Shown piece by piece: positions 366 through 49,812 of a stretch of DNA of 53,111 nucleotides. Position 1 is the first letter of the stretch. Each line of letters starts with the position of its first letter. Source of the stretch: a virus; the IMG/VR virus record IMGVR_UViG_3300005265_000011, positions 1 through 53,111 of that record; one strand, written 5' to 3'. Position numbers and translations under genes: made by a program. A model generated the notes under the pieces. It made no database searches. It worked only from the letters and a program-made list of their open reading frames with translations, and was not told the DNA's origin.

Positions 366-2252
366 TTATTCCTGCTTCAACTTTTTGAACAATGACATCA
401 AGGGTGAATCCCTGTGTCTGTGAGTATGCGCCGTGGTTTCCGTCGTAGTGCCTGGAGCTTCCGTTATGTTCATGTTGACGACTGGTGCACTGCTTACTCC
501 AGGGCCGGCGGCAGCAGAAGTTGCACTTGTAGCGGCGGAGCCGAACATGCCTCCTATTATACCGCCAAGTGCTCCTCCCTTCTTTCCAAACTCAGGTCCA
601 AATAATCCCATCATCATTTGTGCCGCTGCCCAATCCGCCAGCATCTTCTGGAGCATCTTTACAAATGATTCTCCTAATTCATCAAAATTACCTTGCATAG
701 CATCCAAGAAAAAACTGCTCGCCGCCCTTTCCATATTCCTGTAAGCTTCAACCCATATCTCTGACATTTCATCCGCGATTTCGCGATGCTTGCCCATTCC
801 AATTTTTAATGCTTGGTCCCATTGCTCCACCCAACGTGTGGTTGCCTGGTCTGTCATCTCTTCAAACTCTTGTGCGGATATGGCCCCCTCCCTCCGCAGC
901 ATTTCAAGCTCTTTTAGGACCTGGTTGTAGTCGTAATCTATGCGATCTTCGCGAGACATTAACGAGACTCGCATTTGATCTGCTTGGGATAGCAGTCTGT
1001 CAAATTCGGCAACTTCAGCGTTGAGAGCATCCATCTCTTTTTTAGCGTTCGCAGCAGCATTACCAACATCCTCAACGGGAGCTTTATATTTCTCCATGTC
1101 CATTTGTTTTTTGGTTTCTGGGAAAATGCCCGTCTCCATTTTTTGCTGCAGATCCGCAATTCGCTCATTAGTATCATCAAGCACACTATTCCAAGCACCG
1201 AGTGAGATTTGTGCCTGTTTTATTTTAGCATCCATGCCTTTTGCATACTCATCCGGTACCATCCATCCTGTTAAAGGATTGTCTTGTGCTGCTTTGACTG
1301 TTTCATAATACTTAATTTGAAATTCAGTCATTTTGACCATCAATTCAGTAAAAGCACCCTGAGCAATTTCTAATACCATGCTAAATCCTGCCCAAACACG
1401 AGGAGCAAATTTCACCACTTCTGTCAGAGCATCAATCCCCTCAGTGAGCATGCCTGAAGCATCATTTACTTCATTCATTTGCTTTACGGAATTGGTCCAG
1501 GCGGTGTTTAGGTCCGTCATCGCCTGACTAATTGTTTTCTCCATTTTGGCAAATGCTTCATCCACCGACTCACCGCCTTTTTGCAATGCTTCAAAGAAAA
1601 CCTTGGCAGTAAGTTCACCCTCCAACATCATTGCACGCAATTTACCGAGGTCTCCGCTCATTCCTTCAATGTTTTGGGAAACAACCTCAAGCAAATACGG
1701 CCCCTGCTCAATTATACTATTCCATTCCTCAGCTCGTATAATTCCAGCATAAAAACCTTGGGCCAACTGCCGCAATGCATTAGAAGCATCCTGCGCACTT
1801 GCACCTGACACAACCATGGCCTTATTTATTGTTTCGGTCATTGCCAAAACATCCTCATTACTATCGGCATATTTGGAGACGGCTTTGTCGAGGGAAACAT
1901 AAAGTTTGGTGGTGGCTTCGAGTGAGGTGTTAGAGGCATCCGCAACCTGCACCATTTGTTCAAATGTGCCATTGGCGCGGGTGAGCTGATTTTCGAGGTT
2001 TGTGGCCGTGTCCATAGTATTTATCATTCCACTTGCCACACCAGCAAGGGCATTCACCGCCATATCCATTGCAAATACGGCTGCACCGCCCATCGCTCCT
2101 GCAAACATTGCTCCAGTATCAAAATCACCCATAGAGGATTGAGCAGATTTTGCTTTCTTCTCCATGGAGTCCACAGCTTTATTAAAATCTTTGGCTCCCT
2201 TTTCGGCCTTTCGAGAATCAATTCCAGCTGTTAATAAAGCATCAACATCCAT
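366..2252 (-). CDS. Tail tape measure protein
   Basis: This 628-residue protein runs through the tail tube, sets its length and is ejected with the DNA. The N-terminus is alpha-helical and Ala/Lys rich. A hydrophobic Gly/Ala patch follows at about residues 50-80 (MFAGAMGG, VNALAGVASG), then a lambda/TP901-like core containing ALRQLAQGFYAG and EEWNSIIEQGP. A long coiled coil occupies about 380-480, and a Gly/Ala-rich hydrophobic segment about 555-600. The ATG at 2252 has AGGTGA upstream. Its place directly downstream of the two tail chaperone genes is diagnostic. At 628 aa it implies a fairly short tail by the usual length rule. Confidence 0.9.
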   Translation of the reverse strand: MDVDALLTAGIDSRKAEKGAKDFNKAVDSMEKKAKSAQSSMGDFDTGAMFAGAMGGAAVFAMDMAVNALAGVASGMINTMDTATNLENQLTRANGTFEQMVQVADASNTSLEATTKLYVSLDKAVSKYADSNEDVLAMTETINKAMVVSGASAQDASNALRQLAQGFYAGIIRAEEWNSIIEQGPYLLEVVSQNIEGMSGDLGKLRAMMLEGELTAKVFFEALQKGGESVDEAFAKMEKTISQAMTDLNTAWTNSVKQMNEVNDASGMLTEGIDALTEVVKFAPRVWAGFSMVLEIAQGAFTELMVKMTEFQIKYYETVKAAQDNPLTGWMVPDEYAKGMDAKIKQAQISLGAWNSVLDDTNERIADLQQKMETGIFPETKKQMDMEKYKAPVEDVGNAAANAKKEMDALNAEVAEFDRLLSQADQMRVSLMSREDRIDYDYNQVLKELEMLRREGAISAQEFEEMTDQATTRWVEQWDQALKIGMGKHREIADEMSEIWVEAYRNMERAASSFFLDAMQGNFDELGESFVKMLQKMLADWAAAQMMMGLFGPEFGKKGGALGGIIGGMFGSAATSATSAAAGPGVSSAPVVNMNITEAPGTTTETTAHTHRHRDSPLMSLFKKLKQE

Positions 2253-2258
2253 ATCTTG

Positions 2259-2606
2259 TCACCTTCGCCTTGGTTTGGTAGTCTGCAATTTGGCGGATTG
2301 GGCTTTGTATTGCTTGCCCTTAATTTCAAGAAATTTGTTATCCAAAAATTTAATCCATCTTACAAATTCTATCCTTTCATAATCTGGGATATTACAGAGG
2401 TTACAATAAGCCTCAATTTCTTGGTAAGTTATTGGTTGCAGTTGGCTGAGCTGGCGGGAGGCTGAGAGCATCAAAAACGATTCCCATATAAATAAAAGGT
2501 CGTCATATAATGCAGGTTTCTGTTTAAGTGCCTTGGTTACTTTGCCCTCCCTGGCAAGGCGTTGGAACCATTCCTCATTTTTGCCGTATTTTGTCCACCA
2601 GCTCAA
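2259..2606 (-). CDS. Tail assembly chaperone, T-like part (made mainly as -1 frameshift fusion)
   Basis: This 115-residue ORF lies in the -1 frame relative to the upstream chaperone gene. Its frame is open back to the slippery heptamer at 2618-2624, so the natural product is a fusion with the upstream protein, about 249 residues in all (compare lambda gpG and gpGT). The ORF is helical and charged with a Lys/Arg-rich tail (KPRRR), consistent with the T domain that binds the tube and tape measure. The internal ATG at 2606 has no convincing ribosome site, which favours frameshift expression. Confidence 0.75.
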   Translation of the reverse strand: MSWWTKYGKNEEWFQRLAREGKVTKALKQKPALYDDLLFIWESFLMLSASRQLSQLQPITYQEIEAYCNLCNIPDYERIEFVRWIKFLDNKFLEIKGKQYKAQSAKLQTTKPRRR

Positions 2607-2614
2607 CCAGCGTA

Positions 2615-3007
2615 TTAGTTTTTTTCCGTTTCCTCATCCATTGCCTCTTTGTACAAGGAAAGGTCACGGGCGAAATTCATAACCAGTTCACGGAAAGGCT
2701 CGTGCTGCAAATACTTCCTAGCCTTCTCAACACTATATGGGATAGGTTCACCATTTTCCGTAATTCCTTGCCAATCTACGAGGATCGTTTCCGCAATAGC
2801 ACGAATCATAATCTGGTCGTCAACATCGTCTGGCAAGGAATTGGAACGGATGGCAGCAGTGTATGGAGTAATCAACTTGCGAAACACACGTCTAAAATTT
2901 GGGTTATTTGCTCTTGCAACCTTTAACCGTGCATCCTCACCAATTGGTATCCAAACGCCCTGTTCTGCCCTCTCCTCATTCACCGCAAACTGCTTTACAA
3001 TTTCCAT
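2615..3007 (-). CDS. Tail assembly chaperone, G-like part
   Basis: This 130-residue protein coats the tape measure during tail assembly. The start is the ATG at 3007 behind AGGAGGAAG; the open frame further upstream overlaps the tube gene and lacks a ribosome site. Its last codons before TAA contain the slippery heptamer A AAA AAC, where a fraction of ribosomes should shift -1 into the next gene. Order (tube, G, T, tape measure) matches long-tailed phages. The protein is mainly helical without named motifs, so the assignment rests on position and the shift site. Confidence 0.75.
   Translation of the reverse strand: MEIVKQFAVNEERAEQGVWIPIGEDARLKVARANNPNFRRVFRKLITPYTAAIRSNSLPDDVDDQIMIRAIAETILVDWQGITENGEPIPYSVEKARKYLQHEPFRELVMNFARDLSLYKEAMDEETEKN
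2618..2624 (-). promoter_or_regulatory. Programmed -1 ribosomal frameshift heptamer A AAA AAC
   Basis: Read on the minus strand, the last codons of the G-like gene are GAA AAA AAC TAA, which place the heptamer A AAA AAC in the correct phase for simultaneous -1 slippage. After slipping, translation continues as LIRWLSWWTKYG into the downstream ORF with no stop. This is the classical layout of tail chaperone frameshifts. A stimulatory hairpin or pseudoknot downstream was not obvious by eye. Confidence 0.85.
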
Positions 3008-3020
3008 CAACTTCCTCCTA

Positions 3021-4220
3021 TTATGGTTTTCGCCAGGGTGGTGTACCTGCGTAATCCATGGTGACAAGACGGTCAACCCTCATCGTATAGCCACTGTCTG
3101 CACTATACAGGGCCTGCCATCCTATAGCCTCCATCACGTCGTCATTTCTACCCGGCACATCCACTACATCTTCTGAAATTTTGCACCTCGGCCAATCCAT
3201 AAAATACACCAGGCCTTTTCGTTTAAATTGCATACGGAGTGAAAACTCCTGGCCATCCAAAAAGCGGAGGTACATAGCGCCGTCTTCAAAATAGACATTC
3301 ATGTTGCCAGTAACAACAAAGTCACCCTCAGACAAATCTGCAGAACCAAGGTATGAAATGGCAGGCAGGCCACGCACATTATTGTTCACCTCGAAATCCA
3401 AGGACTCCATAAGAATATCCGCCACCGCACCATCAATTTTAATTTGGGCGACGTCCGTTACTGCATTCATAACATCCTCAGCCGGCGGCTCTAATGGGGT
3501 TTCAGGGGAAAAGGTGTTGCCCCTAAAATCAGAATCCTTGCCAACAAAAGTAAACGTCTCCGTCAACACCTCATTTGCTGTTGCGGATAAGGACCAGACA
3601 TTTGCAACCATGCCTGTGAAGAGGAAAAATTTCTGTGCGTCCTGCAATTCACGCTCAATGGAAAAGGATTTCTCCTTAATGCCGTTCACAATAGTAGAAG
3701 CGTTAATGTGGATTTCTGGCCCTTCTGCTTCATCTGCGCCAGCACCAGAAATCTGCATCTCATTCTGGGATACCGAAATGACACGCTCAAAAAATCCTGT
3801 GTCCGGTGCATTGCCTGGATCTTGAAATCCCCAAACGCTCACCATCATGCCTGGTTTAAAACCAGCTGCGACGAAATCCGTTGTGGTGGATTGGAGCAAA
3901 CAAGGGGATCCTGCGGTAATGGCAATGTCGGTGCCAACCACCTCTGCACTTTCCCAGTCGTTGTACAGGGCGGAGGCAATAAAATCGTCAGCATTGCCGG
4001 CCGAAAACTCCATTTCAATATCACCAGCTGCTTCTGCACCATTTAGAATGAGGTCCGTGATTTGGCGGTCGGAACGGATTTCATTGCTCTGGGTGGTAGT
4101 TAATGCAAAACCTAAGGAATCACCTGTATCCCGAACATTCTGCATAGCACCAGATGACGGAGTCTCTCCCCATTCCGCTTCTTCAATATATCTTAATTGG
4201 GTTCTATTAGTGCTGGACAT
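3021..4220 (-). CDS. Major tail tube protein
   Basis: This 399-residue protein would polymerise into the tail tube. It is beta-rich, begins MSSTNRTQLRYIEEAEWGETP, and shows the TTP-like start pattern RSDRQITDLILNGAEAAGDIEMEFSAG at about residues 50-76. It has alternating hydrophobic strands throughout. Its length exceeds the minimal tube fold, so an inserted Ig-like or decoration domain is likely; an N-terminal half with tube features and a central DPGNAPDTGFFERV stretch are visible. The start ATG at 4220 is preceded by AAGGAG. It lies between the terminator-type genes and the chaperones, as expected. Confidence 0.85.
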   Translation of the reverse strand: MSSTNRTQLRYIEEAEWGETPSSGAMQNVRDTGDSLGFALTTTQSNEIRSDRQITDLILNGAEAAGDIEMEFSAGNADDFIASALYNDWESAEVVGTDIAITAGSPCLLQSTTTDFVAAGFKPGMMVSVWGFQDPGNAPDTGFFERVISVSQNEMQISGAGADEAEGPEIHINASTIVNGIKEKSFSIERELQDAQKFFLFTGMVANVWSLSATANEVLTETFTFVGKDSDFRGNTFSPETPLEPPAEDVMNAVTDVAQIKIDGAVADILMESLDFEVNNNVRGLPAISYLGSADLSEGDFVVTGNMNVYFEDGAMYLRFLDGQEFSLRMQFKRKGLVYFMDWPRCKISEDVVDVPGRNDDVMEAIGWQALYSADSGYTMRVDRLVTMDYAGTPPWRKP

Positions 4221-4229
4221 ATTTACTCC

Positions 4230-4640
4230 TTATGCTTCGTAACCTTCCATTAGTGCCTGGAGATCCTGGATGGCCTCGAAAAGATTATCACGTTTATCAG
4301 CAACACCTGGCGTGATTACTGGTCCATCATTTGGGGCATTGGATAAGTATCCTGCAAAGTTTGAAATCGCCTCAGCCTTTATGCGCAATTTATCACATAA
4401 AGCAGGATTATCAACCAGCTGCGGAGAAGTAACCTGAAAGTCAATCACGCCTTGTGCAAGCCCTACTATTGAGCTGGCGTTTTCATTTACGGCATTCTCT
4501 CGCTCTTTGTAGTGATCCGGTATCCAAGGATTATCCGTATTAGCGTTATCCCTGAGCCATTCCGCATTGGTAGCAAGGGCGTCTGCTGCTCCTTTTATCT
4601 GGTCTGTTAAGGTTGGATTATTTATGACTTCAGCGTACAT
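4230..4640 (-). CDS. Unrecognised virion-module protein, 136 aa
   Basis: The family is not recognised. The protein is acidic and helical, with repeated Asn/Ala-rich turns (TDQIKGAADALATNAEWLRDNAN and a related second half around residues 75-135), which hints at a helical repeat or internal duplication. It sits between the tail terminator-like gene and the tube gene with AGGAGGCGC upstream of its ATG. Position suggests a tail or neck role. No membrane segment or catalytic motif is visible. Confidence 0.7.
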   Translation of the reverse strand: MYAEVINNPTLTDQIKGAADALATNAEWLRDNANTDNPWIPDHYKERENAVNENASSIVGLAQGVIDFQVTSPQLVDNPALCDKLRIKAEAISNFAGYLSNAPNDGPVITPGVADKRDNLFEAIQDLQALMEGYEA

Positions 4641-4651
4641 ATTGCGCCTCC

Positions 4652-5044
4652 TTAAATTAGTTCGTCAATTTGGTAAGGGACAGTCACATTTACCCTAAAC
4701 CATATTTCCGTGGCTCCTGTTGGTTTGCTATATCCAGTGAAAAACGACACACCAGAATCCGTATAATGGTAAAAGAGTTTTATTACCTCGTTCGACAAAT
4801 CATTTGCTAATTTTGCTCCAATTCCACGAGGAACAAAAATACTCACATCCACAAACCCATCCCAACGGTTCAAAGCCACAGTGCCTAAACTCACCTGGTC
4901 ACCAGAAGTTGGCACAATTACAGGGGCAATAAATGCTTGTCCGTCCTGAGGTTCAAAATGGACGTTTTCCCATTGGATAGGTGTAGAAGTCCAATTGTCA
5001 TTAAACCGCTTCTCTACCACTTCTCTTACTGTATCCAGGCTCAT
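4652..5044 (-). CDS. Tail terminator / completion protein (DUF4128-like)
   Basis: This 130-residue protein begins with MSLDTVREVVEKRF, a helix typical of tail terminator proteins. Beta strands with PIQWENVHF, GFVDVSIFVPRG and IWFRVNVTVPYQ follow, as in DUF4128-type terminators that cap the tail tube and join it to the head. Its ATG overlaps the stop of the HK97 gp10-like gene by 4 bases (ATGA), so translation is probably coupled. Length and location directly after the gp10-like gene agree with the family. Confidence 0.75.
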   Translation of the reverse strand: MSLDTVREVVEKRFNDNWTSTPIQWENVHFEPQDGQAFIAPVIVPTSGDQVSLGTVALNRWDGFVDVSIFVPRGIGAKLANDLSNEVIKLFYHYTDSGVSFFTGYSKPTGATEIWFRVNVTVPYQIDELI

Positions 5045-5493
5045 GTCCTTCTCCCTGGTTTACGCCTCATCTTATCCAACGATCTGCGAAAATTCATTGC
5101 TCTTCTCTGCACCGCCACCCTTACAATGCCCCGTGGAGCTTGGGTACTGTATCCATCAGCCGTTGTTTTAGGTCCTTGGCCTGGATACTCTCCGTATTCT
5201 ATCACTCTGGCATAGGGCATGTGGTTGGCAATGATGATGAAGTCTCCTAATTCCGCAGTGGATAATTTACTTTGGGCAGATTGCGATGTGTCACCTTCTC
5301 CTAATCCAAGCATGTTTACCCCTAAAACCCAACTTCCCCTCAACGTCCCCTTATCCACCGGGGTCTGTTTAAGTATGTCATCAAATAGGTCAAGTGCAAT
5401 TTTCCTAATGGCCTGCGAAAGCACCATTTGCAACTCATCGGTAACCTCCTGGATTTGGCGACTAAATGAGGCAAAGTCAAGTGTCACATCCAT
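5041..5493 (-). CDS. HK97 gp10-like neck / tail-completion protein
   Basis: This 150-residue protein has the hallmarks of the HK97 gp10 family: an N-terminal helix (FSRQIQEVTDEL), the motif KQTPVDKGTLRGSW at about residues 42-55, and YARVIEYGEYPGQGP at about 93-107, followed by a basic C-terminal helix. Members act at the head-tail junction. It lies between the head-closure gene and the tail terminator, the usual position. The C-terminus is very basic (RRKPGRRT). Confidence 0.88.
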   Translation of the reverse strand: MDVTLDFASFSRQIQEVTDELQMVLSQAIRKIALDLFDDILKQTPVDKGTLRGSWVLGVNMLGLGEGDTSQSAQSKLSTAELGDFIIIANHMPYARVIEYGEYPGQGPKTTADGYSTQAPRGIVRVAVQRRAMNFRRSLDKMRRKPGRRT

Positions 5494-5495
5494 GG

Positions 5496-5870
5496 TTAGG
5501 GCCTCAACAGGATTTCAAAGGTTGCAGGATTCTGTGCCGTGATCCCAGTATATGAATATTCCTCACCGCCAGCCACTATTTTATCACCATTAGCAAGGAC
5601 ACCAGGATCAATCTCATCCATTAATAAAACACCTTTCTTCGTATCTTGTGTAATGGTAAAACCTAATTTTGCCATATCAGATTTTTCCTTTACAGTCAAA
5701 TCACGGAGGATAATTAAAGTGGAAGCTATTTCAGAATTTATTGGAGTGACAATGCCTTGTTCTGGATCATACGAATCTTCCACCTTAAAAATGGTGCAAC
5801 TTTTGGCAAGTCCTCCTGCATGCATTTTAACGAAAAAAGTTTTGGCTGCCTTTTTTATTTGTTCAAGCAT
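5496..5870 (-). CDS. Head-closure / head-tail joining protein
   Basis: This 124-residue beta-rich protein is located between the first adaptor and the gp10-like gene. It shows an N-terminal helix, then strands such as CTIFKVEDSYDPEQG and a central loop GGEEYSYTGITAQNP near residues 100-115. This is the compact small-barrel profile of stopper proteins that close the portal channel and receive the tail. Assignment rests mostly on gene order and size; no conserved catalytic residues are expected. Confidence 0.6.
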   Translation of the reverse strand: MLEQIKKAAKTFFVKMHAGGLAKSCTIFKVEDSYDPEQGIVTPINSEIASTLIILRDLTVKEKSDMAKLGFTITQDTKKGVLLMDEIDPGVLANGDKIVAGGEEYSYTGITAQNPATFEILLRP

Positions 5871-16022: not shown

Positions 16023-16143
16023 ATCTGTCCTCCAAAAAAGAAGGAACATGGCGGGAGGTACGGTAGGTCCAGTGGGTGACGGGGAAGATGACGCCATGTT
16101 CCTTCAAATTATTTATACTGCAATTTTGTTATATTGTAAAGTC

Positions 16144-17488: not shown

Positions 17489-17776
17489 TTAAAAAGCTAT
17501 CTTGTCACATACTTTGCCACGGTTCTCACATTTGGCAAATAATTTGCACTTTTTACAAGATACAAGAATATTCACCGCCGCTGTTATGGACTCTGTGACA
17601 TCCTGTGCACCTGTTTCCCATCCAGTGTGAAATATACGACCTTCCGGTGTCAGGACAAATGTTTCATCCTGTCCACCTTTAAAAAACATGTCTGCAGATC
17701 CCTGGATTGTGTAAGGGTTAAATTTTAAAACATTTATAAAAAATTGAACATTTTTCTGATACTGGGTAAGTTCCAT
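17489..17776 (-). CDS. Unrecognised Cys-containing protein, first gene after promoter cassette A
   Basis: This 95-residue protein has an aromatic N-terminal half (NVQFFINVLKFNPYTI) and four Cys near the end (CKKCKLFAKC...C), a likely Fe-S or Zn site. It starts just after the long promoter-leader repeat, so it should be expressed early and strongly. Function is not recognised. Confidence 0.65.
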   Translation of the reverse strand: MELTQYQKNVQFFINVLKFNPYTIQGSADMFFKGGQDETFVLTPEGRIFHTGWETGAQDVTESITAAVNILVSCKKCKLFAKCENRGKVCDKIAF

Positions 17777-17832
17777 TTTATTTTCTCCTTTTTGTTGTGT
17801 GTTTTTGTTGTGCTATTTTTGTTATGGTAATT

Positions 17833-24580: not shown

Positions 24581-25665
24581 AATAACATACCTTTCAAAGT
24601 TTTATTGTGCGGATTGAATCTCTTGGAGGAATGGCGGCGAGCGAATTCCGTATAAAACCTTGCATTTAGAAAACGCTTATAAGCTCCCCAATTAGTAATA
24701 CCTCTCTCCTCCACCACTTCTACCCATTTCATTCCTTTATCCGGCTCACCTAATCCAAGGGGCTGTATAAGGAAAGGAGAAACTTTTATTAAGTCTGGAT
24801 GTTTTACCAAGGAATAATCCTCTGGCATTTGCTCAAACCTGGATTTGCCCCACTTAATTCCAAGCTCCTCAATATACTGCTCAAACATCTTTTGGCGTAT
24901 TTTAGTTAGGTTCTGGTAATGGTCCGGAGACCAGGTTTTGGGAGAAATGCAAACACAAAAATCATCGGAATAGTCCCATTTCCCATTTCTCCATGTTGGC
25001 ATCATAATTTTACCAAATCCCGAGAGAATCGTCCAAGTGGCGGAATCCACACTATACCAGGGGTATCTTCCCATAAGTTTGAGACTTGTGACTGCAAATC
25101 CATGGAATTTTATTAATGGCTTACCTTTCTCATCCGTCACGTATTCCATACAGTCGTCAAGCCATTTTATTTTCTCTGGTGTCGTCCGGTCATTGGCAGG
25201 GGAAAGGCCTATATAGTCTGACAAGTGCATCATTTTCTTCAACCATTTCCAGTCGTCATTTTGGTGAAAAACATGCACCACTTTATCAGGTGGCAAGGCC
25301 TTCCTCATTTTCTTAAAATTTCTAAAACCCTTCCTGGCAGCAGTATTTGCCATTTTTTTGGTAATATGCTTCTGACCAGGAGAAGCGGGGATGACATCGA
25401 GGTTGACAATGTGTTCCAAGTTTTCTTCATGCTCTTGGCAAAAAGTAACATATTCGTCAACGTCAATTTCCATCCCCTTGCTCCAAGCAGAAAAAGCACC
25501 AGAATCCATAAGGATGTTCTTAAAAATGTGCTTATTGGAAAAATAAAAATCTGCCTGGCTTTTAGTGAAATAATGGTAGGACAGGAGCCTGTTTTCCATA
25601 AACTCGCCAAGCAAGTCTAAATCAGGCTTCTCAATCCCCTGCCCTCCTGCCATAAAGACTTTCAT
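24577..25665 (-). CDS. dpdA: DpdA-like 7-deazaguanine DNA transglycosylase
   Basis: This 362-residue TIM-barrel enzyme is related to tRNA-guanine transglycosylase and would exchange guanine in DNA for a 7-deazaguanine. Signature segments are LMDSGAFSAW (D54), NLDVIPASPG (D90), VFHQND (about residues 132-137), KFHGFAVTSLKLM (about 186-198) and YSVDSATW (D207). Such DSGAFSAW/VDSATW patterns are those I associate with phage DpdA proteins. It is encoded directly after QueF (ATGA overlap) and before the clamp. No zinc-binding C-terminal CxCxxC is obvious. Confidence 0.85.
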   Translation of the reverse strand: MKVFMAGGQGIEKPDLDLLGEFMENRLLSYHYFTKSQADFYFSNKHIFKNILMDSGAFSAWSKGMEIDVDEYVTFCQEHEENLEHIVNLDVIPASPGQKHITKKMANTAARKGFRNFKKMRKALPPDKVVHVFHQNDDWKWLKKMMHLSDYIGLSPANDRTTPEKIKWLDDCMEYVTDEKGKPLIKFHGFAVTSLKLMGRYPWYSVDSATWTILSGFGKIMMPTWRNGKWDYSDDFCVCISPKTWSPDHYQNLTKIRQKMFEQYIEELGIKWGKSRFEQMPEDYSLVKHPDLIKVSPFLIQPLGLGEPDKGMKWVEVVEERGITNWGAYKRFLNARFYTEFARRHSSKRFNPHNKTLKGMLL

Positions 25666-26102
25666 TTCGTTCTGTCTTCTGAAGCAAACATAGAAGGATC
25701 ATGGTAAGTTGCACGAACTTTCAAAGTAATGCCACCACGTGCATTAAAATCACCCACCACCTCCATACTCCGAGGTTTGCAAACATCAACCAAATCGTCC
25801 AAAATCTTGTTCGTAATGGATTCCATAAACGCCCCACTGTTCCTATAAGAAAATAGGTACAGCTTTAAGGATTTGGTTTCAATGCAATGCTTTTTTGGTG
25901 AATATTTTATGGTGATAGTGGCAAAGTCAGGCTGGCCGGTTTTAGGGCATAGACTGGTGAATTCTGGACAAACAAGCTCTATAAGATACGGTCGTTCCTG
26001 TTTCTTATTCTCAAAAATCTCCAACATTTCCTTTTTTGGTTCGTCGTACTTGTAAGCAGTAACATTTGAACCTAATTTTGTCAATCTTGAAAGGTCTTCC
26101 AT
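25662..26102 (-). CDS. queF: QueF, NADPH-dependent preQ0 reductase
   Basis: This 146-residue unimodular T-fold enzyme reduces preQ0 to preQ1. The catalytic Cys and Asp lie in LCPKTGQPDF (C52, D59), the spacing of bacterial QueF. The NADPH motif ETKSLKLY (75-82) is retained apart from Thr at the Ser/Leu position, which argues for true reductase activity rather than the QueF-like amidinotransferase. RGGI occurs near the C-terminus. The start at 26102 has AAGGAGACATA upstream; the longer frame overlaps the previous gene. Confidence 0.88.
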   Translation of the reverse strand: MEDLSRLTKLGSNVTAYKYDEPKKEMLEIFENKKQERPYLIELVCPEFTSLCPKTGQPDFATITIKYSPKKHCIETKSLKLYLFSYRNSGAFMESITNKILDDLVDVCKPRSMEVVGDFNARGGITLKVRATYHDPSMFASEDRTK

Positions 26103-26113
26103 ATTATGTCTCC

Positions 26114-26737
26114 TTAATAATGTATTAACAGTCCTTCTTCCATGTGACGCAATACGCCATCCCATATTCGTGGAAACTGTGATTCCACTCCATATATGGA
26201 AATAACGTCACCAAGGTATTTCAAAGTTGGCTTAAAAACATTCCTGTAATATCCACAGTCCAATATAGTTTCTTCCGCCTCACAATGCAAGGCCCAATTC
26301 CGACCATATTGCCTTGAGGTTAAAGAAACTGTGGTTTCTTTATGCATGTCCACAAAAATGTGTGGCATGCGGGAAAGTAAAGGACGATCAGGATAAATTG
26401 AACAATGGTTGTCAGGTGTGAGGTAAATGCAAGGTCCACCTACTTTGCTCACGAAAATATAATGCTTTACTCCATTTATTGTTATCGGATGTTTCGAGCA
26501 ATCTGGGGTTTCATTAAAAAGCGGTGCGTCCCAAATAATTGCTTTCGCCGGCCCACAACACCTTCCACAACCTCGGCAGGGATAGGCCCTGTAAAGTAGA
26601 GGTGAAATTTGTACATGTGCCGGCTCGTATTTCCATGTCAAATGGTAGAATTTAATTTCTACCGGAACGGCTGTCATCCTGAAAACCGTGTCATAATGTT
26701 TTTTCACGCACTGTATGGCAATGGAGGAGAGGTTCAT
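26114..26737 (-). CDS. CxxCxxCC (YkgJ-like) metal-binding protein inside the modification operon
   Basis: This 207-residue protein carries PCRGCGRCC (C54, C57, C60, C61), then GGPCIYL (C102) and HCSIYPDRP (C110). This is the zinc/iron-chelating or Fe-S pattern of YkgJ/UPF0153-type proteins. The usual final Cys after RP is Ser here (RPLLSR). It is flanked by folE (ATGA overlap) and queF, so it is cotranscribed with the 7-deazaguanine genes. Its role is unknown; candidates are cofactor supply, a further base modification step, or an unrelated passenger. Confidence 0.78.
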
Positions 26738-27285
26738 TTTCCAATAAGCGCCATAACTTCAGCCTTGGCGGAGGCATCTTCAGCAAAAACGCCTTTTACG
26801 GACGAAGTTACCATTAGGCTTCCTTGTTGCTGCACTCCCCTGGCTCTCATGCACAAATGCACCGCCTCAATAACACAAATGGCACCAAGGGGCTGTAAAT
26901 GCTCCATAAGCGCATCTGTCACCTGCTCTCCAATTCTTTCTTGAATTTGGAGGCGACGTGCATATACATTCAAAAGGCGTGCAAGTTTTGAAATTCCAAG
27001 CACCTTGCCGGCCGGAATATAAGCAATGTGTGCCTTGCCATAAAAAGGCAGGAGGTGGTGTTCGCAAGTGCTATAAAATTCAATGTCTTTGAGGAGAACA
27101 ATTTGTCCAATTTTATCCTTATCCTCATCAAAGAATTTCATAACCTCCTCCGGCCGTTGTTTATAGCCAGAAAAAAGCTCTTCCCACGAACGCACCACAC
27201 GAGCCGGCGTCTCCTTTAATCCAGGACGGTTTGGATCGTCTCCTATCTCCTCAATTATATAAGAAACCAAATCCTGTTTCGTCAT
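26734..27285 (-). CDS. folE: GTP cyclohydrolase I
   Basis: This 183-residue enzyme converts GTP to 7,8-dihydroneopterin triphosphate, the first step of preQ0 synthesis. Zinc ligands lie in STCEHHLLP (C74, H77) and HLCMRARG (C145). The core [26 protein letters not shown] (about residues 91-116) is typical FolE. The start overlaps the queC stop by one base (TAATG). Length is that of short phage and bacterial FolE proteins. Confidence 0.95.
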
Positions 27286-27956
27286 TATACCTCTCCTTCA
27301 TATGTCACAGGATCCTCAAGGTAGCACATTTCAAACGCTTCCAAACGCTCCACACAGGATCCACACTTGCCACAAGGAATAAGCTGATCCTTGTAACAAG
27401 TTCTTGTCAATTTGAAAGGGACGTCTAAGTCATTTCCAAGACCAACAATTTGATCCTTTGCCATTTCCAAAAACGGCGTCATTAATCCGCACCGTCCTTC
27501 AGAAATGCGATATATGGTTTCTCCCAAGGATTCTATAAAAGGAGGACGGCAATCTGGATAAATATGGTGGTCTCCTTGGTGTACGCCAAGGGCCACGCGG
27601 CCGGCATTGACTGAGAGGGCGTATCCTGTAAGGATGGAAGCAAAAATCATATTTCTACCGGGCACCACAGTCCTTTTCATGTTTTCGTCATTATAATGTC
27701 CCTCAGGAATTTCTCCTCCTGTTTCCAACAAGTCAGATTCAAAGTGCATAAAAATCTCACGGGTATTTATTATCCGAGGTGACAAATCATAATGTTTACA
27801 AATATCCAAAGCCGCCCGCACTTCATATGGATTATGCTTGGAATTATATTCAAAAATGATAGGACGAACGTCGTACCTGGCAGAAAGTAAAGTGGCACAT
27901 AAGGTGGTAGAATCCAAACCCCCCGACAGTGCCAATACCAAAGTTTTATTGCTCAT
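27285..27956 (-). CDS. queC: QueC, 7-cyano-7-deazaguanine synthase
   Basis: This 223-residue ATP-dependent enzyme turns CDG and ammonia into preQ0. The PP-loop SGGLDS is at residues 11-16. The C-terminal zinc site [16 protein letters not shown] is complete. A middle motif [15 protein letters not shown] (about 117-131) matches the family's substrate region. The start at 27956 has AAGGAGACACAC upstream, and the gene overlaps the queE end by 11 bases. Confidence 0.95.
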
Positions 27957-28674
27957 GTGTGTCTCCTTTTTCTCCAAGAGGAAATAAATATTTATGAATC
28001 TGGAGATTCATGCAAATATCCGTATAACCAGACATGCAAATAGCCTCAAAAATTTCATTACACAAACCATGGGAAACACTGTTCGTTACAGTAGGAATGA
28101 CAGGGGAAAGGGCATATATTGGATCCAGAATGTATGAAAATTCTCTATACTTATGCTTCATTTCCACAATTTCATCAATCGCCCTGTCAATATCCTCCTT
28201 GCAAGTAACCACTCCTTTATAAACAAATTGCGCCCATGGCATTTTCTGGACGTGGAATCGTGGCCATTCCATTTCCCTAAAAGTTTTGGTTTTAAGTTGA
28301 TCCTGTGTTTTTATGTCAATTACATAGCAATCGACCATGAGAGGCTTCTGGATGGTCCCATTCGTCTCCACGGTAATAGTTCTTCCCGTACCAGCACGAA
28401 GTTTCGCAACCAATGTATTCAATTCTTCATGCTGTAATAAGGGCTCACCACCTGTAATAAGAATATGGTTGAATCTGGATCGTTTTATTTTTGCATATAC
28501 CTCATCAACATCCATCTCCTTATAAAAATTGCCTATTACTGCATCCTTGGTGTCACAATATGTGCACCTCAAATTACATCCGTGAAGACGAAGAAATGTT
28601 GTAGGATGGCCTTGTGGCATTAATCCAATTTCTCCATTCACGGAATCAAATATACTGTAAACTTTCATTTTCAT
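27946..28674 (-). CDS. queE: QueE, 7-carboxy-7-deazaguanine synthase
   Basis: This 242-residue radical SAM enzyme makes CDG from tetrahydropterin. The cluster motif HGCNLRCTYCDT has C33, C37 and C40 in CxxxCxxC spacing. GGEP appears near residues 79-82 and VETNGT near 103-108. The start at 28674 overlaps the queD stop in ATGA, so the longer upstream frame is not needed. The chain is complete. Confidence 0.95.
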   Translation of the reverse strand: MKMKVYSIFDSVNGEIGLMPQGHPTTFLRLHGCNLRCTYCDTKDAVIGNFYKEMDVDEVYAKIKRSRFNHILITGGEPLLQHEELNTLVAKLRAGTGRTITVETNGTIQKPLMVDCYVIDIKTQDQLKTKTFREMEWPRFHVQKMPWAQFVYKGVVTCKEDIDRAIDEIVEMKHKYREFSYILDPIYALSPVIPTVTNSVSHGLCNEIFEAICMSGYTDICMNLQIHKYLFPLGEKGDTHEQ

Positions 28675-29096
28675 GAATAACAAGCCTTGGCTTTCGCTGT
28701 CTCCCAAACACAAACCTTAGAAACCCGCACGTCAGTGGGAAAATACTCCTGCAATTCTTCAAAAATATATTTCGCCATATTTTCCGCTGTGGGATTAAAA
28801 GGCAGAATAATTAATTCAGAATGAGAAAGTAATGGAATAAAAATACCATCTTCCTCCCATTCATCCTGCTTATTTTGGGAAATAATTAAGGAATGGTCCC
28901 AATTTCCAAAAACAGCATTTGCATATTCAGACAATAGTTTAAAATCAACGACCATTCCATCCGCATTAAGGAAGGCGGAAACTACTGTAACCTCAACCTT
29001 ATAACTATGGCCATGGATGCGCTGGCACTCCTCCGAGTAAGAGGAGTCCAGCACATGTGCCGCTTCAAACATAAAATGTTTGGTTATTTTGAACAC
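28671..29096 (-). CDS. queD: QueD, 6-carboxytetrahydropterin synthase
   Basis: This 141-residue T-fold enzyme converts dihydroneopterin triphosphate to 6-carboxytetrahydropterin. Zinc ligands are H14, H28 and H30 in FEAAHVL and RIHGHSY, and the catalytic Cys is C24. The start is GTG at 29096, which overlaps the stop of the previous gene by one base. It is the first biosynthetic gene of the cluster in transcription order. Confidence 0.93.
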   Translation of the reverse strand: MFKITKHFMFEAAHVLDSSYSEECQRIHGHSYKVEVTVVSAFLNADGMVVDFKLLSEYANAVFGNWDHSLIISQNKQDEWEEDGIFIPLLSHSELIILPFNPTAENMAKYIFEELQEYFPTDVRVSKVCVWETAKAKACYS

Positions 29097-29896: not shown

Positions 29897-29925
29897 AATA
29901 TAATGCGCCTAATCCAAATTGTCAA
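29897..29925 (-). promoter_or_regulatory. Consensus promoter of the modification-replication operon
   Basis: Perfect TTGACA (29920-29925), 17 bases, TATATT (29897-29902) on the minus strand, lying over the end of the upstream gene and about 40-100 bases before the first start. No obvious terminator was seen between it and the polymerase genes, so queDEC, folE, queF, dpdA, clamp and polymerase should share this transcript. Confidence 0.8.
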
Positions 29926-31668: not shown

Positions 31669-33189
31669 CTATAACATTTTCTTAAATTTCTGAATTACCG
31701 GCCGCCCAATGCCAAGATCGCAAAAAATACGGGCCTCATAAAAGCTCGAAGCCTCCTCCCTAACAAGGATTTCATTCACCCTCATCATTCCACGCTGTTT
31801 TTCTTCCAAGGTTTGGTTTAATCCAAATTCAGCCGTGATGTGTGACCTTTTACGTTTATCCTCAGAAAAGTTGGACAAACCAAGGCTCCTATTTTCCGCT
31901 CCTGCAATGTCCGCCTGGGTGGCAGTTATAATGCAGCAGTCAAGCTCCTGGCTCAAGGCCCTAATGCGTTTCCAAGTTTGATTTATTTTGTGACGAAATT
32001 GTGTCTCAAAACCTGGTTCTGGCGCCATAATGTCAATATAATCAATAATTAAGACATCTGGTACAAATCCTATTTCACGTTTCCAAATATTTAATTGTTG
32101 GCGGATTCCTTGCACGTCCAAAGAATCGGCTTGGTGGGAAGAAAGCATTAATTTTCTTCCCGCCCGCCTTTGGAGCCTTTTCATAACATGCACAGCTTCC
32201 TCATCCCTCAACCGTTTCCTTTTACATTCTCGGTACCAGGGAATAGGCACATACCGTTCTTGTTTTCCCGTAAATAAACATTCGTTACAAGGCACGTGAT
32301 CCTTATACATTTCAAACATTTCCTTTTTCGTGCCTTGCCATTCAATTTCGTCAGGCTCAATTAATGTGCAGCTTCCATCCTGGTTATACAAACAATCTGG
32401 CACCAATTCCAATTGTTCTCCACAATACCTTTTCTTAAAATTTTTACCAGAAGCATGGACACAAAACCTGGCAGTTATTTGTTTTTCAGACATGTCACCA
32501 GCCTCAAAAAAAGCAACATTATTCCTTTGAATAAGTGCTTTATGTGCCAGGTCTATTAAAAACCAAGTTTTTCCACGTTTTTCTGGGGCGAGTAAGGAAA
32601 GGAAAGAAGACCTGACAAAATGAGGATTCATTAATTCCCCTAATTTGCCAGGATATTTGAAAAGTGGTTTGTCAACCTCCTCAAATGCAGCCCTAATTTT
32701 ATCCTCATTTATATGGAGGGGAATTGGAGGGGCGGAATCTGCCGAGGGGAGAGAAAATTCCTCCAATAATAAGTTAACTTGTTTGAAATCTTTTCTGCGA
32801 CGTGCCTCCTCTAATTCCTCTTCAAATAGTGCCAACGAACGGACACGAAAAATCTCTTCCGCCTCAGACAAAATAGTGTCTGGATTAACCTGGATTATTT
32901 CGTCTTCATATCTCGTGGATAGGGCAGAAATAAAGGAAGCAATATTGTGCTTTAATCCATCCTCAAGAGAGTCCTGGCGAGACAAAAATATGCCTTCAAT
33001 ATCTTCACCTGGAGCCCTGTCATATTTTCTGTAATAATCAACACACCATTCAGCAATTAATTTGGCATAAGGAATCTCAAAATAATCCGCATTAAACATG
33101 GGGAATATTCCGGCAATAACCTCATCGCTCATGATCATCCCCGTAAGGATGCGCTGTTCCTTTAACGTGTCAACTTTCCGTCGTTTCAT
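31669..33189 (-). CDS. Replicative DNA helicase (DnaB-like)
   Basis: This 506-residue RecA-fold hexameric helicase has an N-terminal DnaB-type helical domain (about residues 1-145, starting LKEQRILTGMIMSDE). Walker A APEKRGKT is at 201-208 and Walker B VLIIDYIDIM at 379-388. QADIAGAEN near 434 and an Arg-rich C-terminus follow. Between the Walker motifs is an inserted Cys cluster (C256, C266, C274, C301, C304, C322) that probably binds zinc and is not part of standard DnaB. Its loader is encoded 950 bp upstream. Confidence 0.88.
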   Translation of the reverse strand: MKRRKVDTLKEQRILTGMIMSDEVIAGIFPMFNADYFEIPYAKLIAEWCVDYYRKYDRAPGEDIEGIFLSRQDSLEDGLKHNIASFISALSTRYEDEIIQVNPDTILSEAEEIFRVRSLALFEEELEEARRRKDFKQVNLLLEEFSLPSADSAPPIPLHINEDKIRAAFEEVDKPLFKYPGKLGELMNPHFVRSSFLSLLAPEKRGKTWFLIDLAHKALIQRNNVAFFEAGDMSEKQITARFCVHASGKNFKKRYCGEQLELVPDCLYNQDGSCTLIEPDEIEWQGTKKEMFEMYKDHVPCNECLFTGKQERYVPIPWYRECKRKRLRDEEAVHVMKRLQRRAGRKLMLSSHQADSLDVQGIRQQLNIWKREIGFVPDVLIIDYIDIMAPEPGFETQFRHKINQTWKRIRALSQELDCCIITATQADIAGAENRSLGLSNFSEDKRKRSHITAEFGLNQTLEEKQRGMMRVNEILVREEASSFYEARIFCDLGIGRPVIQKFKKML

Positions 33190-33196
33190 AGGCGTT

Positions 33197-33225
33197 TATA
33201 TAATGCAGGGCAAATAATTTGTAAA
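33197..33225 (-). promoter_or_regulatory. Promoter of the replicative helicase gene
   Basis: TTTACA (33220-33225), 17 bases, TATATA (33197-33202), with GCAT before the -10. It lies 8 bases from the helicase ATG region, so the mRNA leader would be very short or leaderless. A terminator immediately upstream isolates it. Confidence 0.7.
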
Positions 33226-33231
33226 GTAAAA

Positions 33232-33269
33232 AGGCCCTAGGAAAAAAGGATAAGAAAACCCAGGGCCCA
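33232..33269 (-). terminator. Terminator upstream of the helicase promoter
   Basis: The minus strand forms GGCCCTGGG paired with CCTAGGGCC (one mismatch) and continues TTTTTACTTTAC. It would stop RNA coming from the intergenic region before the helicase promoter. Confidence 0.6.
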
Positions 33270-33319
33270 CACACAATGAAGGAGATATAGAGTGGTACTA
33301 TGAAAAAGCATAAAAAAGG

Positions 33320-33363
33320 GGTTGGCAGGTATGGCATATAGGGACAAAAAATACCTGCCAACC
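33320..33363 (-). terminator. Strong Rho-independent terminator in the noncoding region
   Basis: A perfect 13-bp stem (GGTTGGCAGGTAT with ATACCTGCCAACC) with an 18-base loop is followed on the minus strand by CCTTTTTTATGC. It is the natural end for the RNA starting near 33561. Confidence 0.82.
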
Positions 33364-33561
33364 AAAAACTACATTGGGTGAAACCATATGCTTACAAAAG
33401 AACCCCTCAACCGAGTCTGTTTTGACTTTTTCGGTGTCACGACTGTTAGGATAGCAAAACAGCAATAAAAAAACCCTGTCCGCTTGTTGGCATTTATGGT
33501 TCGGCATCGCCAACTGGGGCCTTTGTAATATTGGATGAACCATATGGGGCATCCAAATATG
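33320..33561 (-). ncRNA. Candidate small noncoding RNA, about 240 nt
   Basis: A promoter at 33568-33596 and the terminator at 33320-33363 define a transcript with no good ORF. It can form several hairpins: GGATG/CATCC close to the start, GTTGGC/GCCAAC near 33486-33515 and the terminator stem. A T7 run lies in the middle at about 33470. It resembles no RNA family I know. It could be antisense, a decoy for a host factor or a replication RNA. Confidence 0.5.
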
Positions 33562-33567
33562 ATATAA

Positions 33568-33596
33568 TATATAATGCATGTTTCACCAATTGTAAA
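33568..33596 (-). promoter_or_regulatory. Promoter of the minus-strand small RNA
   Basis: TTTACA (33591-33596), 17 bases, TATATA (33568-33573), again with GCAT before the -10, as in the helicase promoter. It is back to back with the plus-strand promoter; the two -35 boxes are 8 bases apart. Confidence 0.7.
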
Positions 33597-33604
33597 GATT
33601 TTGC

Positions 33605-33633
33605 TTTACTTTTTTTGTGGCAATGCGTATAAT
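33605..33633 (+). promoter_or_regulatory. Promoter of the plus-strand RNA
   Basis: TTTACT (33605-33610), 17 bases, perfect TATAAT (33628-33633). It points away from the helicase gene into the noncoding region, antisense to the direction of the flanking genes. Confidence 0.7.
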
Positions 33634-33639
33634 CCAAGC

Positions 33640-33960
33640 CTTGTAATATTGGAACAGCAGGAGTCTCGGTCCGGGCTTAGGACAACCGCACTTTGTAAAA
33701 AGTGGCAAAGAGGCTGGGGAATATATTTTCCCCCTGTGAGAATAAGAAGACCTTTAAATGGCTTCATACGGAGAAAACCGCCCATAAATCCTCAACCTGC
33801 TGGCATATCAGGGAACGCCAATTTATATGCGCCTCTAATAGACTGAGGCCTGCTGAAACGTTCCATTTGGAGTATCTAATTCATACCTCGCCTACTCTGG
33901 TTGCAAAACGGAATATGGGTGAGATAAGTAAAGACATAATTATTTAATCTGGTTTTCTTA
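33640..33960 (+). ncRNA. Candidate structured plus-strand RNA, end uncertain
   Basis: Starting about 7 bases after the TATAAT, the RNA could fold into CACTTT-GTAA-AAAGTG (GNRA-like loop), GTCC/GGAC, GGGGAA/TTCCCC and GCCTC/GAGGC hairpins within 200 bases. Overlapping ORFs here lack ribosome sites and have unnatural compositions. The 3' end is not defined; no plus-strand terminator was found before 34130. Confidence 0.4.
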
Positions 33961-34002
33961 TTCATTGAAGTCTATTTAATTGTGTCATTGTTCAATTGCT
34001 GA

Positions 34003-34032
34003 TTGGTAAATAATCTGATAATCAGATATAAT
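34003..34032 (+). promoter_or_regulatory. Promoter with operator palindrome in its spacer, antisense to the helicase loader
   Basis: TTGGTA (34003-34008), 18 bases, TATAAT (34027-34032). The spacer ends in the palindrome TCTGATAATCAGA (34014-34026). Larger dyads surround it: ATTGCTGAT...ATCAGCAAT, and CATCATCTCAT at 34054-34064 paired with 34117-34127. RNA from here would run into the loader gene in antisense. Confidence 0.5.
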
Positions 34033-34135
34033 ACTCGGTATCAGATTCAGTATCATCATCTCATCAGCAATCAACAGCTTAACTCACTCACTCCGAACGT
34101 CCTAGGTATGAGATACATGAGATGATGGTAGAGAT

Positions 34136-34789
34136 TTATTTAGTTACCCTCCTGTCTTTACCAGGTATTTGAATTACAGTACACATTTCTGATAACCTGG
34201 ATGGAATACGTGGATCATCAGAATAGGCAGTTTTTAGTTGCTTTAAGGATAGGTTAGAGGTTACAACCGTTGTCCTTCCCCATTCGTATCTCTCATTAAT
34301 TATCAAGTAAAAAATCATGCGAGTCCATGGCGTTGGGTATTCCGCACCTAAATCGTCCATGACAATCCAATTTGACTGCTGAAGTGGGTAGATGATATGC
34401 TCTGTGGTACCACTGTCAAACGAGTTTTTAATGTCCTGGATAAGTTTTGGCACATTAACGTACATTATGGTTGAAGCTTTTTCCACGTATCTTTTTCTGG
34501 CGGAAAGAACAAGCATTGTGAGAGCCATAGTAGTTTTGCCACAACCAACAGGACCAGAAATATACGCACTTTCATTTGATACATCCTTCAAATATTTATC
34601 AATTTTATCCTGCCAATAATCGAAATTCTGGGCCATGTTTGCAAATAGGCGGGGTGGCAAAGTTATTCCATGAAGTTCTAACAATTTCCTTTTGGACATT
34701 TTATCCACTTGTTTGATCCGTACGCACTTTGCACACGGCCTGCCAACTGCTTTATTTTCATTTCCACAAATTGGGCATGTTTCTTTCAT
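34136..34789 (-). CDS. Helicase loader (DnaC-like AAA+ ATPase)
   Basis: The protein has 217 residues. An N-terminal zinc finger (CPIC...CAKC, C5, C8, C19, C22) is followed by an AAA+ core with Walker A GPVGCGKT at 79-86, Walker B IVMDDLG at 142-148 and a sensor segment VVTSNLSLKQL near 175-185. It ends with RLSEMCTVIQIPGKDRR, as in DnaC/DnaI. It should load the DnaB-like helicase at the origin. Being next to the large noncoding region suggests that region may include the origin. Confidence 0.88.
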   Translation of the reverse strand: MKETCPICGNENKAVGRPCAKCVRIKQVDKMSKRKLLELHGITLPPRLFANMAQNFDYWQDKIDKYLKDVSNESAYISGPVGCGKTTMALTMLVLSARKRYVEKASTIMYVNVPKLIQDIKNSFDSGTTEHIIYPLQQSNWIVMDDLGAEYPTPWTRMIFYLIINERYEWGRTTVVTSNLSLKQLKTAYSDDPRIPSRLSEMCTVIQIPGKDRRVTK

Positions 34790-34845: not shown

Positions 34846-35847
34846 TTAACTGTCCTTATTTTCCTTGGGATTGACAGGCTTAATATAATCAGGACGTGAC
34901 TTTCTGGCACGGCGCATTTTTTTGGCAGCAGCACGGGCTTTGGCCTGAGCTTTGCGCCTCTTCTTGCGCAGGAGCCACTTCCTGAAATTCATGTCTGCTA
35001 ATGCAGTGTGGATCTTGTCCACTGCTTCGTCATTCCAGACATATACTCCAGTTCCAGGAGATGCAGGACTATCCTGGCAATATTCCAAACCCTTTGAAGT
35101 GCATTCCCAACCAATGTACTTTTTCTTCGAGGGCCGCATAAAGCCAAGCCAATTAAGTGCCTGGTTCACAGTATTTGCGTTCGTAACCGGGTCACAGTTT
35201 TTGGCAATTTCGCTTGCCAGGAGATAACCTTCCGCAACCGGCCTCTTTTTTGATGTGGCGGCAAGTTCTTTTTCAGCAATGGCTTTGAGGACAGGCGTGA
35301 CATCACGAAGAATCGTCGCCAGCTCATTATTCAGAACAATAAGCTCATCCACACGCCTACTCTGACCAATAAGCAAATCCTTCAGCTCTGCATTCTCCTG
35401 CCTCAAATTTATAATTTCTCCAATGAGGCGCATAACAACCTTTTTTGCGGCCTTTTCAATTGCAATGAAATAAGCACGAACATCCTTGCCTTTTTCGGTC
35501 ATTGTGGCAAGCGCAATGTGCTTTGCAGCCGTGATTTCAATGAGGTAATCCTTGCGAGGTTGACCAGCTGTTTTGGATATTCCTGAATTTTCATGAATAT
35601 TATATCCAATGATTTCAACACCTTTAGTGAACTCATGCCTTTCAATCTGGTGTTTAAGCCATGCAGAAAAATCACCTTTTACACCAAGCTGCTCATGCAA
35701 TGTGCGTGCATCAACTGCCGTTACTTCTTCGCCGTCGATTTCCTCAGTGAGGCAGGGCAAGGTGCCTGCAAGATCCTTAAACCTTGCATACCCAGCCACC
35801 TTCGAAACGGCTTCCTTCATAATGTCTGGATAATTTTTTATATCCAT
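34846..35847 (-). CDS. AntA/AntB-type antirepressor with C-terminal DNA-binding-like domain
   Basis: The protein has 333 residues. The N-terminal AntA/AntB module shows VDARTLHEQLGVKGDFSAWLKHQIE (about residues 45-69), then YLIEITAAKHIALATMTEKGKDVRAYFIAIE (about 101-131). A coiled coil (about 140-175) links to a C-terminal domain with ASEIAKNCDPVTNANTVNQALNWLGF, and the protein ends in a very basic tail. Such proteins relieve repression in temperate phages, but no repressor or integrase is seen here. It might act as a regulator of the repeat-cassette promoters. Confidence 0.82.
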   Translation of the reverse strand: MDIKNYPDIMKEAVSKVAGYARFKDLAGTLPCLTEEIDGEEVTAVDARTLHEQLGVKGDFSAWLKHQIERHEFTKGVEIIGYNIHENSGISKTAGQPRKDYLIEITAAKHIALATMTEKGKDVRAYFIAIEKAAKKVVMRLIGEIINLRQENAELKDLLIGQSRRVDELIVLNNELATILRDVTPVLKAIAEKELAATSKKRPVAEGYLLASEIAKNCDPVTNANTVNQALNWLGFMRPSKKKYIGWECTSKGLEYCQDSPASPGTGVYVWNDEAVDKIHTALADMNFRKWLLRKKRRKAQAKARAAAKKMRRARKSRPDYIKPVNPKENKDS

Positions 35848-37476: not shown

Positions 37477-37589
37477 CTCCTTTTTGTTGTGTGTTTTTGT
37501 TGTGCTGTTTTTACTATGGTGATTAATATAATTGTTTCTGATTAAATTGCAAATATTTATGCCAGATTTTTTATAAAAAGCCAAAAAAA
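37477..37589. repeat. 113-bp direct repeat of the left cassette
   Basis: This stretch aligns without gaps to 17785-17897 with only a few mismatches, including the whole promoter-leader and its AT-rich upstream part (TATGCCAGATTTTTTATAAA). It lacks the 26-bp units. Recombination with the left copy would delete 19.7 kb. Confidence 0.85.
37525..37552 (-). promoter_or_regulatory. Promoter-leader repeat, copy B
   Basis: TTGCAA (37547-37552), 16 bases, TATATT (37525-37530) on the minus strand, followed by the conserved CACAACAAAAA-type leader and AAAAAGGAG. It starts the wHTH-antirepressor-loader transcript. Confidence 0.75.
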
Positions 37590-37596
37590 CTTTTTC

Positions 37597-37625
37597 TTTA
37601 CAAATCATTTTAACATTATTATAAA
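37597..37625 (+). promoter_or_regulatory. Promoter of the SNF2 helicase gene
   Basis: TTTACA (37597-37602), 17 bases, TATAAA (37620-37625), 21 bases before the ATG. It is divergent from copy B. Confidence 0.72.
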
Positions 37626-49595: not shown

Positions 49596-49615
49596 AAGGG
49601 GCTTTACGGCCCCTT
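49596..49615. terminator. Bidirectional terminator between convergent operons
   Basis: AAGGGGC/GCCCCTT 7-bp stem with a 6-base loop, A5 on one side and AATTTG on the other. The T run is stronger on the minus strand. It ends the plus operon and probably catches minus transcripts too. Confidence 0.7.
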
Positions 49616-49620
49616 AATTT

Positions 49621-49812
49621 GTCTGTTTACCATGAGAAATTAATGTTCACTAATTTCAAATTATCACCTATTAATTTGTCTGTTTACCATGAGAAATTAA
49701 TGTTCACTAATTTCAAATTATCACCTATTAATTTGTCTCCTTATTATGAGAAATTAGTACCAATTAATTTCAAATTATCACCTATTAATTTGTCTGTTTA
49801 CCATGAGAAATT
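49621..49812. repeat. 57-bp tandem repeats, 3.4 copies
   Basis: Units start at 49621, 49678, 49735 and 49792 (partial). Units 1 and 2 are identical; unit 3 differs at about 12 positions. AT-rich, with the conserved core AATTTCAAATTATCACC. The open frame through it (19 residues per unit) starts only with TTG, has no ribosome site and changes mainly at nonsynonymous positions, so it is judged noncoding. It is an iteron-like or terminator-associated array. Confidence 0.8.

Follow-up and report, generated by a model that had tools for sequence, protein, structure and literature searches.

Two folded RNA gene candidates, probably functional, in a gene-free gap of a phage replication module

The gap and its neighbours

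The gap described here spans 946 nt (33190-34135). No other gap in the window, the whole 53,111-nt stretch of viral DNA that was analysed, is as large; the next measure 498, 477 and 383 nt. It is bordered by the start of a DnaB helicase gene at 33189 and by the stop of a DnaC-like loader gene at 34136, so that the original prediction of a single large gap between helicase and loader genes in a dense genome is borne out. Phage genomes are dense, and a gene-free kilobase among the replication genes suggests that a function there is under selection. The open reading frames within the gap score between -0.06 and +0.09 bits per codon, as against a mean of 0.27 in ORFs of at least 150 amino acids, and a Pfam search of these frames gives no match. 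Neither does any frame pair align above a score of 40 between this gap and that of a related viral contig, L018, in which the gap ORFs have no counterpart. No conserved protein is found, which would have told against the original prediction. ARAGORN detects no tRNA or tmRNA in the gap, and Rfam 15 finds no family at the gathering threshold in the whole window. At permissive E-values, the Rfam scan of both gaps returns only weak eukaryotic snoRNA and miRNA matches for the window and nothing for L018, in keeping with the earlier view that the RNAs belong to no recognised family.

Near the middle of the gap, two promoter-like sites face away from each other, and towards DnaB the minus strand carries a terminator with a perfect 13-bp stem (arms 33320-33332/33351-33363), a further terminator-like hairpin and the promoter of the helicase gene (Table 1). 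All of these sites had been predicted and are present, and the minus-strand RNA, first put at roughly 240 nt, is now predicted to measure about 250 nt. Both minus-strand hairpins escape the terminator scanner, which accepts loops of up to 8 nt. In a generic sigma-70 scan the area yields 7 sites, a number in line with chance (6.4 expected). The strict pattern TTKACA-N17-TATAWW occurs five times in the window against 0.09 expected, including the promoters of RNA-A, DnaB and the SNF2 helicase, and the pattern TTKACA-N17-TATRTT occurs in L018 only twice, before RNA-A and before DnaB, against 0.01 expected, both patterns having been composed after the sites had been seen. The putative RNA-B promoter, with its TTTACT box, is not among the five. 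No terminator is recognised for RNA-B in the window or in L018, nor any promoter near RNA-B in L018. Further sites of the strict pattern lie at 16112-16140 and 29897-29925 on the minus strand and at 37597-37625 on the plus strand, the last before the SNF2 helicase gene. The possibility that a 13-nt direct repeat, TTGTAATATTGGA (33523 and 33641), serves as an operator or as a pairing site between RNA-A and RNA-B was rejected, since other copies with mismatches are near chance and the repeat itself is not kept in L018. A palindrome, ATCTGATAATCAGAT (34013-34027), lies where the gap is AT-rich (about 28% GC) and may be an operator or an unwinding element; this part shows no similarity to L018.

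Table 1. Positions of genes, RNA elements, promoters, terminators and repeat arrays (window coordinates unless L018 is named)
Feature	Position	Strand	Remarks
DnaB helicase gene	31669-33189	minus	Pfam DnaB_C, PHROG DnaB-like helicase
DnaB promoter, TTTACA-N17-TATATA	33197..33225	minus	same promoter class as that of RNA-A (direct repeat)
Second intrinsic-terminator-like hairpin, GGCCCU/AGGGCC and U-run	33228..33267	minus	directly before DnaB promoter
RNA-A gene, predicted transcript of about 250 nt, promoter to terminator	33312..33561	minus	start inferred
RNA-A terminator, 13-bp perfect stem, 18-nt loop, CC then U6	33312..33363	minus	from sequence and fold
RNA-A conserved domain, closed by long-range stem P1	33392..33528	minus	homologue L018 5519-5362 minus
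RNA-A second conserved stretch, AAAACAGAYUCGGUUGA	33407..33423	minus	just before 3' strand of P1
RNA-A hairpin P2, 6-bp stem, 17-nt loop GAUGCCGAACCAYAAAU	33486..33514	minus	from comparison with L018
RNA-A promoter, TTTACA-N17-TATATA	33568..33596	minus	L018 equivalent 5556-5528 minus, TTGACA-N17-TATGTT
Putative RNA-B promoter, TTTACT-N17-TATAAT	33605..33633	plus	not above chance alone
RNA-B domain, closed by GGAACAGCAGG/CCUGCUG..GUUCC	33651..33864	plus	homologue L018 about 5034-4720 minus
RNA-B core, hairpins CACUU/AAGUG and GGGAA/UUCCC, conserved GGCUG linker and UGUGAGAA	33689..33771	plus	from covariation
RNA-B 3' core, conserved CCUCA, 9-nt loop CUGRCAUAY	33774..33812	plus	from comparison with L018
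DnaC-like loader gene	34136-34789	minus	adjoins gap
AT-rich 57-bp x3.5 tandem array, iteron-like	49614-49812		most iteron-like in window; candidate replication origin
48-bp x3 array in L018 gap	L018 4310-4453		possible homologue of the 49614-49812 array in reverse complement

Conservation and covariation in a distant relative

Searches with DnaB and SNF2 retrieved considerably more than a hundred viral loci. Of the 34 loci in the first set, for which ORFs of at least 100 amino acids were considered, most have no large gap before DnaB, and the only one with a gap of more than 1 kb there (4294-5601) is L018, an 8.9-kb viral contig whose DnaB is 44% identical at the protein level to that of the window and which is also the closest relative by DNA within this set. 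The gap between DnaB and SNF2 in L018 carries homologues of two separate pieces of the window gap, here named RNA-A and RNA-B, and the remaining, flanking parts of the window gap show no similarity to it. Local similarity to the L018 gap reaches a score of 66 for RNA-A (dinucleotide-shuffle mean 26.4, sd 3.3, maximum 41) and 53 for RNA-B (mean 27.9, sd 3.2, maximum 41). With the window gap alone as the query, nhmmer ranks L018 first of 77 loci, with E values of 0.0038 for RNA-A and 0.35 for RNA-B. Two further observations concern L018 itself: a lone CRISPR-repeat-like sequence, GTTTCAATCCCATTAATGGGACTTATTGAGCG, lies between its RNA-A and RNA-B (5254-5285) and could be a solitary repeat, and its SNF2 helicase (1588-4293) is interrupted by an intein, measuring 901 amino acids as against 585 in the window, with weak Pfam matches to Intein_splicing and Hint.

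Comparison of the two phages reveals that much of the stem sequence has changed and that the pairing has been kept. In RNA-A, the two arms of P1 lie more than 100 nt apart, and at aligned positions one phage has C4/G4 and the other G4/C4. In hairpin P2, five of the six stem pairs are changed on both sides in L018 with pairing retained, and 16 of the 17 loop positions are conserved. The P2 loop (CCGAACC) might also form a pseudoknot with UCGGUU; these positions are nearly all invariant and so carry no covariation signal. In RNA-B, the predicted fold is closed by an end-joining stem in both phages, and four pairs of one core hairpin and three of the other are rewritten, out of five in each. In alignments made by hand with the structure in view, RNA-A shows 12 base pairs and RNA-B 8 in which both partners have changed and still pair, with alifold z scores of -10.1 and -8.9, respectively, against 1000 column shuffles; sliding controls lose the pairing in both RNAs. 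Compensatory stem changes between homologues, the hallmark of a structured non-coding RNA gene, are thus present in both RNAs, as seen between two sequences, and the covariation check proposed with the original prediction is passed. The expectation that both RNAs fold into several hairpins holds for the covarying stems and for the minus-strand RNA, which folds more strongly than its shuffles (z -3.0), and is less well supported for the plus-strand RNA, whose folding is only weakly above that of shuffles (z -1.5). Folding energy does not settle the strand, which rests on the promoters and on the terminator of RNA-A in the window.

Two results are independent of the hand alignments. One is the nhmmer search with the window gap alone, and the other comes from a covariance model for which only L018 RNA-B and the fold predicted for it were used; this model gives a single match in the window, at 33689-33771, in the right position and on the right strand (E 0.0067). 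In a wider set of loci, the window match of the same model drops to E 0.12 and is outranked by a likely chance match in another phage, and RNA-B is therefore less secure than RNA-A. The membership of both families is at present two sequences, the window and L018. A mismatch-tolerant search of all loci found no third member, nor did models R1 and R2 on 50 related viral records; among cultured phages and plasmids, DNA comparison gave only short chance matches, and motif scans of viral contigs returned L018 plus chance or coding-region matches. Another 42 motif matches in genome contigs were discarded as non-members, coming from unrelated taxa and not forming the P1/P2 fold. Across viral contigs, species genomes, phages and plasmids, the patterns and models used thus yield no third member, with the qualification that exact patterns overlook diverged members.

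Because a distantly related phage carries both RNAs with compensating base changes, we consider that the gap holds two folded RNA genes and that these are probably real functional RNAs outside the catalogued families. With no Rfam match, RNA-A and RNA-B are candidates for new RNA families. They resemble GOLLD and ROOL (PMC12286853, PMC2864571) in being phage-borne structured RNAs without coding capacity. Unlike GOLLD and ROOL, both are much smaller, and neither the window gap nor the L018 gap matches an Rfam family even at permissive thresholds.

Gene order, possible roles and alternatives

In each phage the two RNAs are part of the replication module, in arrangements that differ. In the window the two genes are divergent and RNA-A points towards DnaB, whereas in L018 they stand in tandem, both on the strand opposite to DnaB, with RNA-A pointing away from it. 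This difference in orientation suggests that each RNA gene stands alone. It also favours stand-alone, probably trans-acting RNAs, because a leader would keep its orientation and free RNAs need not. The reading that we prefer, with a probability of about 0.6, is that RNA-A and RNA-B are two separate genes for trans-acting RNAs that would be made together with the replication proteins and would show their conserved loops to a partner. From the sequence features we infer that host polymerase transcribes both RNAs from adjacent sigma-70-type promoters, fired back to back, at DnaB-type promoters and together with the replication proteins. RNA-A would be a stable RNA of some 250 nt with the P1-closed domain, the P2 loop hairpin, a second conserved single-stranded stretch and a strong terminator, and RNA-B would be a closed domain of several hairpins, about 215 nt long. 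The two RNAs may work through contacts between their conserved loops and a partner, either protein or RNA, most likely in phage replication or host take-over, and the likely contact points are the 17-nt loop and the second conserved stretch of RNA-A and the 9-nt loop of RNA-B. We speculate, tentatively and with a good deal of doubt, that the pair exerts a two-RNA control of phage replication or subverts a host RNA-binding protein, the two new families being unrelated to ColE1-type or iteron control. If they act on either, they would add an extra RNA layer to phage take-over. The pairings of P1, P2 and the RNA-B hairpins are directly testable by breaking and restoring the stems.

An alternative is that the locus is an RNA-based origin, at which a primer or R-loop arises from one transcript or from both and the fold sets the timing of replication, as with ColE1 RNA II or the prophage origins of cluster A mycobacteriophages. 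The original prediction had regarded replication control or an origin as plausible, which was a positional guess. Position speaks for it, as the gap belongs to the replication module in both phages, flanked by the genes for DnaB and the loader in the window and by those for DnaB and SNF2 in L018, and so does the promoter type that RNA-A shares with DnaB. The L018 gap also holds an iteron-like array of three 48-bp units. The case for an origin proper fares less well: 33190-34135 contains no iterons or tandem repeats of the kind that mark an iteron-type origin, the gap has neither DnaA boxes nor a turn of the GC skew, and the best array of the window, possibly homologous to that of L018, lies 16 kb away. 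The resemblance between the two arrays is modest, with a score of 55 against a shuffle maximum of 52, and AT-rich sequence inflates such scores. Moreover, a primase and a helicase loader are encoded by the phage itself, and the rearranged order of the RNAs fits one primer geometry poorly. In the ColE1 system, RNA I is fully antisense to the 5' part of RNA II. The present locus is similar in that two folded RNAs share one small locus and that, in the window, RNA-A and the 5' end of RNA-B have 13 nt of perfect complementarity. It differs in that RNA-A and RNA-B diverge without overlapping, so that no antisense RNA overlaps a primer RNA, and in that the complementarity is absent in L018. There is a precedent in RNA-dependent prophage origins, which exist in the cluster A mycobacteriophages RedRock, Alma and LadyBird (PMC7157519). 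These also involve phage non-coding RNAs that are intergenic and tied to replication functions, but they are single RNAs beside parABS that serve prophage maintenance and not lytic growth (PMC7157519), while here two structured RNAs with conserved folds lie beside DnaB. Neither parABS nor an integrase was seen among the genes examined in the window. Taken together, we regard an RNA-based origin as unlikely.

It is also conceivable that the conserved stretches are DNA elements, such as protein, packaging or recombination sites, or decaying remnants. The families have few members, the RNA-B promoter is weak, and the transcripts are predicted ones, all of which would suit such elements. However, P1, despite its widely separated arms, and P2 keep their complementarity and not their sequence, and a DNA site needs no complementarity; in addition, a DnaB-type promoter precedes RNA-A in both phages. 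This makes DNA elements or remnants quite improbable. About equally improbable is RNA-A as a cis-acting leader of the DnaB operon, an attenuator or riboswitch in which the terminator after an aptamer-like domain sets the readthrough into DnaB. In the window RNA-A does precede DnaB, shares its strand and has a strong terminator at its end, but a second terminator and DnaB's own promoter follow it, and the same-strand upstream position expected of a leader is not kept in L018. Least credible of all is a short protein from one of the gap ORFs of 93, 90 or 81 amino acids, for although the two phages share, by coincidence, a stretch that reads KVKTDSV, a protein is contradicted by the noncoding-like codon scores and by the Pfam and frame-pair results, and from the start of one conserved RNA-A motif to that of the other the distance is 87 nt in one phage and 106 nt in its relative, so that the spacing differs by a number of nucleotides not divisible by three.

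Other features of the window

Several other features of the window were observed. Nearly identical tandem units of 13-14 bp, TTTTTGTTGTGCTA and TTTTTGTTGTGCTG, occur at 17789-17823 and 37481-37512, just upstream of minus-strand genes that start at 17776 and 37469. An AntA/AntB-type antirepressor gene lies beside the loader gene (34846-35847), which is unexpected because no integrase was seen among the genes examined. A run of genes at 25662-29096 resembles a 7-deazaguanine (queuosine-type) synthesis pathway, with QueF recognised by Pfam and the others judged from sequence, and this suggests that the phage may carry modified DNA or modify tRNA.
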